IMG/VR virus record: IMGVR_UViG_3300031857_000888
Coordinates: 1 to 31,184 of that record
Length of the DNA stretch: 31,184 nucleotides
Strand: one strand, 5' to 3'
From: a virus
In this document: positions 25,573 through 28,764 of the stretch, in pieces
How positions within the stretch are numbered: position 1 is the stretch's first letter
Layout: each line of letters opens with the position of its first letter
Position numbers and translations under genes: made by a program
The notes under the pieces: model-generated
Told to the model about the DNA's origin: nothing
The model's database searches: none
What the model saw: only the letters and a program-made list of their open reading frames with translations

Positions 25573-28500
25573 ATGGCACTGAACCAGAACTTCTCGGACT
25601 TCTTCGCACCGCCCCCGGCCCCCGCGCCCAAGCGGCAGCCAGCCGCGCCCGCGCCGGCTCCGGCTCCGGCGCCCGTGCCCCAGGACACGTTCGCGGGCGT
25701 GCCGGCGTGGACCGACATCCAGGCCAAGCCCGAGTTCAAGGCGCTGCCCCCGGCCAAGCAGGCTGAGGCCAAGCAGGCGTACTTCGACTACTGGATCGCC
25801 CCGCGGGTGGGCCAGGACGCCGACGCGATCCGGCAGCAGTTCATCGGAGCGACCCCCGAGGCGCCGGCCGTGGACGAGCAGGCGGGGCAGGCGGCGTTCG
25901 GGATCTACCCCCAGGCCAAGAGCGCCAAGCCGGCCAAGCCGATCCTGGAGCAACCCGGTGCCGTGCCAGACCAGGAGTTCACCAGCCGGGTGCCCGCACG
26001 TCCCGAGGTGCGCCGCTCATTCGAGGCGGCCTGGAATGCGGCCACACCGGCCGAGCGCGCTCAGATGGAAGCCGCCCCAGGCTGGACCGGGCAGCTTGCA
26101 CGCGAGCGGGCAGGGTTCGCCAAGGCCGCCGACGCGGGCATGGCGCAGGCCGGCTCCGAGATGCGCGCCACGCTGGAGGGCATGGATCCCCGAGCCGAGT
26201 TCCGCGCCGCCCGCCTGCGCGTTCAGGGCGAAGATCCGCGCTTCGCCGAGGCTGCGGGGCGCCAGGGCGCCCGTCGAGGGGTGATGCCGGGGCAGGAGAT
26301 CAAGGCCCTGGACGGCACGGTGCAGGAGTCGAAGTTCGACTTCGAGACGGCCGACTTCTTCGACCCGAAGAACGACCCGAACGGGATGAACAACGCGCTG
26401 GTGCGCGGGGTGGCCAAGGGCGTTGCCGGGATCGGCAAGTCGTATGCCGGCCTGTTCCAGTTCCAGGCCGATCTGGTCGGGTTCGACAGCGCATCGCAGT
26501 CGGCGCGGCGCGGCGGCGAGTGGCTGCGCGGCCAGGAAGAGGCCATCGGCGAGCGCGGCGACTTCCTCACCCGCAACCTGGAAGGCGCGATCAGTTCGAT
26601 CTCGCAGCAGTTGCCGCTTCTCATCGCAGGGGTCGGGGCCGCCTCCCAGGCCATCCCGCTGGCAGGCATCGCCCTGCAGTCGTTCGGCCAGGAGTACAGC
26701 GACGGCAGGGCCAAGGGACAGAACACCGGGCAAGCGGCCACCCGCGCCGCGATGTTCTCTGCCTTCGAGGTGATCGGCGAGAAGTTCGGCCTGGGCCAGC
26801 AGATGGACGCGCTGCGCGCCGCTGCACGCGGGATGCCCACCAGCGAGATCGCCAACCTGCTGTTCTCGGCGCTGAAGAAGGAGATCCCCGGCGAACTGGT
26901 GACGACCACCGGCCAGTTCTCGGTGGACAAGTTCGCTGGCAACGGCATCGGCCTGAACCCGAACGCGACCTTCAACGACTACATGAAGCAGGTCGCCGAC
27001 ACGATCGCGCAGACCGTCATGCAGTCGGGCCTCATGGGCGCGGGCACCACTGGCGTGTCGGCCGGCGTGCGCTTCCTGCGCGACAGCGATGTCAGCCAGG
27101 GCGTGGCCGAGGCCGACGCCGAGGCGGCCAAGCGCACCGCGCTGGATCGGTGGTCAGGGTTCATGGGCCGCAGCCAACCGGCCGCGACCACGCCGACCGC
27201 CGTCGATGGCCGCATCGAGCCCAGCCTAGACACTGGCGCCGCCCCGCCGACGGACCCCACCAACCCCCTGGTACAGACCGCCGACGAAATCGTGCGCGGG
27301 CTCGCCACCGACGCCGGGATCCCCGAGGCGACGGTGCTGCCCGGGGCGACTGCGCCCGCCGCGGCAATCACCCAGGGCGACCAGGACATTCTCGACTTCG
27401 CGGGCGCCCGCTTCCAGCAGTTGCGCCAGAAGCGCGACGGCACGGATGAGGAACCCGGCCCAGGGCTGTCGCCCAGCGAAGAGCAAGAACTGCAGGCACT
27501 CGTGCAGGCACGCGGCAATCCGGTCGCGTTGCGTGCGTTCTATGGCATCCCCGACCAAGGAGCAGAAGATGTACGGCAAACCCAAGAACCACTCGATGGG
27601 CCTGCATCAGGCGCGGCCCCCGGCCAAGGCGCCCAAGGGCAAGCAGCCCCCGGCGCAGTACCAGAACAACCAGGGCAACAGCCCAATGAAGATGGCCAAG
27701 CGCAAGGGCTAGACCAAGCGATCGACGGCCTGGGCGCCTTGTTCGGTGAGACCGAGGCCCAGCGCGAGGCTCGCCTGGAGCGCGAGGCGATCCAGGGCGA
27801 GAGCGACTTCCAGGCCCAGGCGCCCACCAACGACGACGACATCCCGCTTGATCTCGGCCCGCCCAAGACCGAGAAGGAAGCACGCCAGCGAAAGGAGCAG
27901 CAAGCCAATGAGCAAGCCGGTCAAGCCCAGCAAGCAGAAGCGCCGCGAGAAGAAACCCTACGAGCCCCCGCCGCACCGCAGGGTGCTGCCGCCCCAGGGG
28001 TAGGGGCTGCCCCCAGAAACATCTTCACCAATCCCACTCCAAGACCGGCCCCGGAGCCCGCGTCCTGGGACCGGATGTCGGCGCCTGCCGCCCCAGGGGT
28101 AGGGCCCAAGACCGAGCGCGAAGCCAAGCAGCAACGGCAAGAAGCCGCCCCGCCAGTTCAGCAACCCGCTCCCCCTGGTGCGACACCGGAGGCAGGGGCC
28201 GGGAGTACCCAGCCGACGCAGGTTGCGCCCACCCCGGCTCCGAATCCCCCCCAAGGGCAAGGAGAGGCGGCCACCCTGCCGCAAGATCTCTCCGGCGCCA
28301 AGCCACGGTACAACTACGGCGCCAAGACCTTTGAACTGAACTTCTCAAGCGACATCGACCGGGCCGCCTACATCACAGCCCAAAACAAGACATCTTCGCG
28401 CGACGCCGACTACGTGGCCTTTGTGTCGCGGCAAACCGGGATGACAGAGGACGAGGTTCGAGCACATGGCAGAGCCGTGCGCGACGCCATCAAGGCCGTG

Positions 28501-28764
28501 GCAAAGGACGCGGCCCCTGGCGCGCTGAACGTCCCCACGGTGGCGCGTGCGACCAAACCATCTCGGCTGCCAGCCCCACCGCCCCCGCCCCCACCACCGC
28601 CGCCCCAGGCTCCCAGCCTCGAAGGCGTCAAGGTCAAATTCGACGTCATGGTCGAAGATACGGGGCAGACGGCGTCTATGACGGTTGACGCTGCCACCCA
28701 GATGAAGGAATACGACGAGCGTGAATCGGTGTTGCGCGAGTTGATTGCTTGCCTGCAAAAGTGA
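25573..28764 (+). CDS. Large internal virion/ejection protein (third of three)
   Basis: At 1063 residues this is the second largest product of the window. It has a Pro/Ala-rich N-terminus, a motif AKPEFKALPPAKQAEAKQAYF (about 50-70) common at the start of large phage internal proteins, charged helices, a hydrophobic membrane-interacting-like stretch (about 335-380: LPLLIAGVGAASQAIPLAGI), a helical core to about 530, then long disordered Gln/Pro/Ala-rich linkers. Near the end, YNYGAKTFELNFSSDIDRAA with AYITAQ and DADYVAFVSRQTGMTEDEV (about 911-965) looks like a small globular domain shared by large phage polyvalent-type proteins. A run of ten prolines (about 1002-1015) follows. Two small ORFs are nested in another frame within its linker region. 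Confidence 0.72.
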   Translation: MALNQNFSDFFAPPPAPAPKRQPAAPAPAPAPAPVPQDTFAGVPAWTDIQAKPEFKALPPAKQAEAKQAYFDYWIAPRVGQDADAIRQQFIGATPEAPAVDEQAGQAAFGIYPQAKSAKPAKPILEQPGAVPDQEFTSRVPARPEVRRSFEAAWNAATPAERAQMEAAPGWTGQLARERAGFAKAADAGMAQAGSEMRATLEGMDPRAEFRAARLRVQGEDPRFAEAAGRQGARRGVMPGQEIKALDGTVQESKFDFETADFFDPKNDPNGMNNALVRGVAKGVAGIGKSYAGLFQFQADLVGFDSASQSARRGGEWLRGQEEAIGERGDFLTRNLEGAISSISQQLPLLIAGVGAASQAIPLAGIALQSFGQEYSDGRAKGQNTGQAATRAAMFSAFEVIGEKFGLGQQMDALRAAARGMPTSEIANLLFSALKKEIPGELVTTTGQFSVDKFAGNGIGLNPNATFNDYMKQVADTIAQTVMQSGLMGAGTTGVSAGVRFLRDSDVSQGVAEADAEAAKRTALDRWSGFMGRSQPAATTPTAVDGRIEPSLDTGAAPPTDPTNPLVQTADEIVRGLATDAGIPEATVLPGATAPAAAITQGDQDILDFAGARFQQLRQKRDGTDEEPGPGLSPSEEQELQALVQARGNPVALRAFYGIPDQGAEDVRQTQEPLDGPASGAAPGQGAQGQAAPGAVPEQPGQQPNEDGQAQGLDQAIDGLGALFGETEAQREARLEREAIQGESDFQAQAPTNDDDIPLDLGPPKTEKEARQRKEQQANEQAGQAQQAEAPREETLRAPAAPQGAAAPGVGAAPRNIFTNPTPRPAPEPASWDRMSAPAAPGVGPKTEREAKQQRQEAAPPVQQPAPPGATPEAGAGSTQPTQVAPTPAPNPPQGQGEAATLPQDLSGAKPRYNYGAKTFELNFSSDIDRAAYITAQNKTSSRDADYVAFVSRQTGMTEDEVRAHGRAVRDAIKAVAKDAAPGALNVPTVARATKPSRLPAPPPPPPPPPPQAPSLEGVKVKFDVMVEDTGQTASMTVDAATQMKEYDERESVLRELIACLQK
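27569..27712 (+). CDS. Nested small basic ORF 1 (+1 frame inside ejection gene)
   Basis: This 47-residue reading lies wholly inside the ejection gene in another frame. It begins MYGKPKNHSMGLHQARPPAK and is rich in Lys, Pro, Gln, Asn and Met, with a basic end (KMAKRKG). AAGGAG at 27557-27562 lies six bases before its ATG, an ideal Shine-Dalgarno. By my count 44 of 47 third codon positions are G or C, matching the genome, whereas the overlapped frame has only about 21 of 47. This suggests it is expressed. No domain is recognised; a nucleic-acid-binding or disordered small protein is inference. Confidence 0.6.
   Translation: MYGKPKNHSMGLHQARPPAKAPKGKQPPAQYQNNQGNSPMKMAKRKG
27908..28003 (+). CDS. 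Nested small basic ORF 2 (+1 frame inside ejection gene)
   Basis: This 31-residue ORF lies in the same alternative frame as the previous nested ORF, 195 bases further on. Its product is Lys/Arg/Pro-rich (MSKPVKPSKQKRREKKPY, then PPPHRRVLPPQG). AAAGGAG at 27891-27897 precedes the ATG by ten bases. About 30 of 31 third positions are G or C in this frame, against about 15 of 31 in the ejection frame. The small size makes it less certain than ORF 1. Function is unknown; the strong positive charge is compatible with nucleic acid binding. Confidence 0.45.
   Translation: MSKPVKPSKQKRREKKPYEPPPHRRVLPPQG
27986..28104. repeat. Direct 20-bp repeat pair
   Basis: The same 20 bases occur at 27986-28005 and 28085-28104, beginning CTGCCGCCCC and ending AGGGGTAGGG, 99 bases apart and in the same ejection-protein frame (encoding the AAPGVG-like motif). 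The first copy contains the stop codon of nested ORF 2. Around them the protein also repeats GP-KTE-EA-Q-R, so this linker probably grew by duplication. Confidence 0.8.

Follow-up and report, generated by a model that had tools for sequence, protein, structure and literature searches.

Two putative basic protein genes nested in the +1 frame of a phage virion gene, and candidate nested families in giant DarB-like and polyvalent genes

The viral record IMGVR_UViG_3300031857_000888 of IMG/VR, which we analysed over its whole length of 31,184 bases and call the window, very probably contains two real protein-coding genes inside a late virion (ejection) gene, both in its +1 frame and each probably translated by ribosomes that start internally. 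The host gene lies at 25573-28764 on the plus strand and is predicted to encode a protein of 1063 amino acids. Three properties of embedded genes were found: both nested ORFs are contained within the host gene on the same strand, both have a stop codon of their own as well as a conserved start codon and ribosome-binding site, and purifying selection is detected in the nested frame, as a low rate of amino acid change in ORF1 and as suppressed change at host third positions in both.

The two nested frames and selection on them

ORF1 (27569-27712, plus strand) encodes a basic peptide of 47 amino acids, MYGKPKNHSMGLHQARPPAKAPKGKQPPAQYQNNQGNSPMKMAKRKG, and is preceded by a Shine-Dalgarno sequence, AAGGAG, at 27557-27562 with a 6-nt spacer to the ATG. 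The first-pass annotation had claimed a 47-codon ORF in this frame with AAGGAG six bases before its ATG, and both features were recovered by translation and by locating the motif. It had also estimated third-position G/C at about 94% in the nested frame and about 45% in the overlapped frame, the reverse of the rest of the gene. We computed 0.94 and 0.44, in agreement with this estimate; G/C by nested codon position is 0.56/0.44/0.94, and the host-frame GC3 of 0.44 across ORF1 compares with 0.89 upstream. That reading overlooked another nested ORF, and also that nesting of this kind is widespread in giant phage genes. ORF2 (27908-28003, plus strand) is in the same frame as ORF1 and encodes a very basic peptide of 31 amino acids, MSKPVKPSKQKRREKKPYEPPPHRRVLPPQG, that belongs to a family with the motif KPxKPSKQKR and a conserved start codon. 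Its Shine-Dalgarno sequence, AAAGGAG, is at 27891-27897 with a 10-nt spacer. Over ORF2 the host-frame G/C by position is 0.97/0.62/0.47, the same reversal of composition as at ORF1.

Rates of change were measured against one close relative, the contig IMGVR_UViG_3300045999_005102 (L001; the same contig also appears as L004, L005 and L043). The L001 host protein is 77% identical to that of the window in the best segment, and the nested peptides are identical at 46 of 47 residues (ORF1) and 30 of 31 (ORF2). AGGAG before ORF1 is kept in L001 and the ORF2 Shine-Dalgarno sequence is identical. Six substitutions separate the two copies of ORF1, five of them at nested third positions, all nested-synonymous. 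Using the Nei-Gojobori method, pN/pS over ORF1 was 0.05 in the nested frame and 1.75 in the host frame, while outside the nested ORFs it was 0.40 in the host frame and 1.26 in the +1 frame. The values for ORF2, 0.87 nested and 2.74 host, come from four substitutions only, too few for the ratio alone, and the raw nested value reflects a Ser codon change from AGC to TCC that counts as two of three nonsynonymous steps with the residue kept. Host third positions changed in 1 of 48 codons across ORF1 (p 3.4e-7) and in 1 of 32 across ORF2 (p 9.5e-5), versus 31% outside; the minimum in equal-sized stretches elsewhere in the aligned part was 7 changes for the ORF1 size and 3 for the ORF2 size. The overlapped stretch of the large protein is a loosely constrained linker of Gln, Pro, Ala, Gly and Glu.

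Judged from these substitutions, purifying selection acts on the ORF1 protein in the nested frame at present, which sharpens the first-pass statement that this frame "is, or recently was" the selected one. The third-position comparison amounts to a simplified version of the synonymous-site constraint analysis suggested there. Two findings had been named that would speak against the claim, and we sought both. Homologs lacking the start, the Shine-Dalgarno sequence or the open frame were not encountered as such, the start and open frame being kept and the Shine-Dalgarno sequence usually so; rather than a lack of excess constraint at host synonymous sites, we observed strong suppression exactly at ORF1.

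Searches of Pfam and PHROGs with the ORF1 and ORF2 peptides gave no matches. A profile built from the two near-identical ORF1 copies matched only the L001 contig, and tblastn searches for relatives of either peptide in the phage collection gave no useful match, a result that the low-complexity filter makes uninformative for such basic peptides. The predicted structure of ORF1 is of low confidence (mean pLDDT 69, pTM 0.15) with no secondary structure assigned. Translation would begin internally at the nested starts on the late mRNA for the ejection protein and would yield two small, very basic, probably disordered proteins. The role that we favour for them, held more tentatively than the existence of the genes, is that they could be basic accessories of the ejected protein that bind nucleic acid or the virion.

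The host gene and its kinship

N-terminal homology links the host gene, as a shortened relative, to the giant DarB-like or polyvalent virion proteins (Iyer et al. 2017, PMC5512222; Bcep22-like phages), and we do not class it as a DarB. A profile of its N-terminal 660 residues matched 18 viral loci, most of them with a host frame that stays open for about 2400-3185 codons, and the homology extends to the giant ORFs of L006-L022. In the giant ORF of L006 we found SLT, methylase and SNF2-helicase domains and, across about 2000 residues, a match to PHROG 10089, "DarB-like antirestriction". Matches to L006 were found in 119 phage records, including Burkholderia phages BcepIL02, DC1, BcepMigl, JC1 and CSP3 and phages of Erwinia, Pseudomonas, Klebsiella, Agrobacterium, Ochrobactrum, Sinorhizobium, Vibrio and Microcystis. 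Homology places the host gene in this family, whereas the methylase-helicase dyad that marks a DarB-like or polyvalent protein does not: the 1063-residue window copy has no match in Pfam or PHROGs, and Pfam detects none of the SLT, methylase and helicase domains carried by its relatives. Scanning prokaryote genomes with the N-terminus of the host protein gave three weak partial matches.

Kinship with the giant family suggests that the host protein is an ejection protein. According to PMC9144972, the giant protein gp69 of JC1 was found in virions by mass spectrometry (51 unique peptides, 15.6% coverage), and the giant virion gene makes up 22.1% of the JC1 genome. We also observed repeated PKTE(K/R)EAK motifs in the host protein (25573-28764; L001:5001-9179) and in a giant relative, L002. 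Past position 28004 the window and L001 can barely be aligned until their common C-terminal end, as if a module had been swapped.

Nested genes across giant virion genes

Apart from the window, nine contigs contain a relative of ORF1. It always occupies the +1 frame of a host frame open for 1393-3185 codons, and in each contig ORF2 follows in the same frame 88-472 nt downstream. On the evidence of these records, the order and frame of the pair are kept in nine other phage contigs. Across the ten records that include the window, ORF1 starts with ATG in 8 and with GTG in 2, and AGGAG precedes the start in 8.

For ORF2 we used a DNA pattern for KPxxKPxxKQKxK, which we estimate at about 47 bits, so that far less than one chance match is expected in IMG/VR. 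It matched at least 120 stretches. Among the 80 matches listed, 79 lie inside a longer open frame, usually of more than 1000 amino acids, and are in its +1 frame; the exception, L075, is truncated at the edge of its locus. Because the pattern itself selects for nested residues, their conservation in this census is not independent evidence; the start codon and the Shine-Dalgarno sequence are. The codon three before KPxxKP falls outside the pattern, and in 69 distinct sequences listed it is GTG in 26, TTG in 21, ATG in 20 and AAA in 2 (67 of 69 are start codons). Such a mixture at one fixed codon points to a start codon and not an internal residue. A strict Shine-Dalgarno sequence was present at 75% of ORF2 relatives versus 5% of control positions in the same genes, with a spacing of mostly 6-7 nt. 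The two ORF2 hosts that we tested, L087 and L118, contain helicase domains of the strawberry-notch type, indicating that this family occurs in more than one polyvalent architecture. Codon usage fails to favour the nested frame at ORF2 in lower-GC relatives (40/73), and thus it is no universal detector: it works in GC-rich phages and fails in lower-GC relatives. At one locus (L021:9090-9170) the ORF2 start is ATA, with ATG in the near-identical L020, and in L103 the host frame is short and apparently broken. We considered whether ORF2 might resemble the basic N-terminal part of ribosomal protein bL32, and dropped the idea when Pfam gave no match even at E 10.

We scanned 26 giant host genes (305 kb) by codon usage, with 135 kb of other long ORFs from the same loci as a control. 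In the giant genes 39 nested ORFs were better supported than the overlapped frame; every one of them uses the +1 frame, and a strict Shine-Dalgarno sequence precedes 31. The control contained none. Besides the ORF1 and ORF2 families (a and b), the nested ORFs include a family of about 100-132 amino acids (c; MNLNNWV..HWKE or MTETQLLELL) in cultured phages of Burkholderia, Erwinia, Klebsiella, Agrobacterium and Microcystis, one of 90-94 amino acids with MQxLYxPSQYPKE (d), one of 76 amino acids in Pavtokvirus (e) and one of 119-134 amino acids (g). A 54-amino-acid ORF in Lessievirus (f) is unconserved in comparison with CSP3 and JC1 and is the least certain of these candidates. The last family (h) has 57 amino acids, MLxxLSxxQVExALxWL..EWFLLxRMLxxLLQEKxxSPLQ, and occurs in the same host genes as the ORF2 census (L047-L126), for example in L078, L047 and L103 (5531-5707). 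It is strongly conserved; of 38 distinct loci, 36 have it nested in the +1 frame, and its start is ATG in 36 of 37.

Family c is located in the DarB-like gene at L026:10472-10795, L029:11492-11809, L034:10916-11242, L035:10832-11140 and L042:11420-11818, where it is unannotated and shows purifying selection in the +1 frame. Its tblastn matches extend to Vibrio, Sinorhizobium and Pseudomonas phages, always within the giant gene: when we looked for standalone copies, all 19 phage records with a match had it inside the giant gene. In families c and e selection is reversed as at ORF1, with pN/pS of 0.23-0.50 in the nested frame and 0.63-2.78 in the host frame, compared with 0.17-0.36 for the host frame elsewhere. 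The pair BcepIL02/BcepMigl gave 0.23 nested and 2.78 host, and the pair Pavtok/PEp14 gave 0.27 and 1.03.

Taken with the scan, these comparisons make it likely that giant polyvalent or DarB-like ejection genes are a platform for about eight nested families of about 20-132 amino acids, which use the +1 frame throughout and lie mostly in linkers between domains. The linkers of some of the largest phage proteins would then be out-of-frame readings of small genes, with several unannotated proteins in each giant gene. The nested ORFs are unannotated in the GenBank records that we examined, except in Sinorhizobium phage PBC5, where one forms the C-terminus of an annotated ORF. In this phage (L037:10840-11148) orf33 combines the N-terminal half of the giant gene with the nested protein in one frame, and orf23 is the remaining half; this is a frameshift, either natural or introduced by sequencing error. 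The nested family at this locus also forms the end of PHROG 938, "endolysin".

Alternative readings and known embedded genes

Stop codons in alternative frames are rare in GC-rich genes, and many unrelated ORFs of 60 or more amino acids overlap in the window, so the +1 frame might be open by chance next to a coincidental Shine-Dalgarno sequence and ATG. Against this stand the selection in the nested frame, the suppressed host third positions, the conserved starts and the control ORFs of the same phages, which had no matches in 135 kb. On the pN/pS values, the control scan and the third-position test, we rejected this reading, to which we assign a negligible probability. It is scarcely more probable that the conserved stretches are RNA or DNA elements, such as structures, packaging signals or binding sites. 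High DNA identity over the nested ORFs is what such elements would produce, but the changes sit where nested codons stay synonymous, including the Ser change in ORF2, and the two 60-nt start regions fold no better than shuffled sequences (z 1.31 and 0.55). A search of Rfam for an RNA element at the nested ORFs gave no match.

Ribosomes translating the ejection gene could also shift into the +1 frame and terminate at the nested stop codons; the products would be truncated ejection proteins with new tails. In the window this frame is already open ahead of ORF1, from 27446, and the fusion in PBC5, by mutation or sequencing error, joins the host and nested frames. Such programmed frameshifting is nevertheless improbable, as similarity in the nested frame begins at the start codon with none upstream, and the Shine-Dalgarno sequences and start codons are conserved, with ATG, GTG and TTG exchanged at one fixed position. 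Somewhat less improbable, and still unlikely, is that the nested ORFs are translated for regulation, with initiation or slow translation of a polybasic peptide tuning the amount of full-length ejection protein. Both peptides are short and highly basic, and where they lie in the host gene, and in which order, is conserved. Conservation of residues across distant phages argues instead for protein products, and other nested ORFs, of 57-132 amino acids, are neither short nor basic. We therefore favour nested protein-coding genes with internal initiation over these four readings.

How the nested arrangement arose may be explained by the host linkers running through small genes. In the +1 phase, the G/C-rich third base of a nested codon would be the first base of a host codon. 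Because stop codons begin with T, a G/C-rich first base makes host stops rare and keeps the host frame open, and it makes the linker rich in Ala, Pro, Gly, Gln and Glu, as observed. The restriction to the +1 frame may follow from this codon phase, which alone is insufficient for the lower-GC phages.

Fully embedded genes are known in phages, such as lambda-type Rz1 inside Rz and phiX174 E inside D. As in those cases, the nested ORFs are complete genes on the same strand as the gene that contains them, in another frame and with their own start and ribosome-binding site. In contrast, Rz1/Rz and E/D are single pairs of small genes, whereas each giant gene appears to hold several unrelated nested families, all in the +1 frame and in linkers. 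Embedded Rz1 is also named in PMC9144972. A term search of this paper and of PMC5512222 found no discussion of nested genes in the giant genes, and a literature search for genes that lie within or overlap DarB-like or polyvalent genes gave no relevant result; the original Bcep22/BcepIL02 paper lies outside its coverage and could mention them. Overprinted genes of viruses and bacteria (reviewed in PMC8227390) likewise give two proteins from one stretch of DNA with a composition-biased host segment. Here, unlike in those genes, conservation is higher in the nested peptide than in the overlapped host segment, suggesting that the host linker may be the younger reading.

Giant virion genes are annotated as single proteins, although they can fill about a fifth of the genome in these phages. 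Should additional conserved proteins be encoded in their linkers as a rule, entire families have gone unnoticed, also in cultured phages of Burkholderia, Erwinia, Klebsiella, Agrobacterium and Microcystis, and codon-phase geometry would be a simple account of how giant genes read through small ones. Mutations made in polyvalent genes may strike nested genes too. Family c, present in cultured phages, is possibly the easiest for laboratory work. In Pseudomonas phage Itty13 (L031:7291-18549) the record places three opposite-strand ORFs in the giant-gene region, apparently a misannotation.
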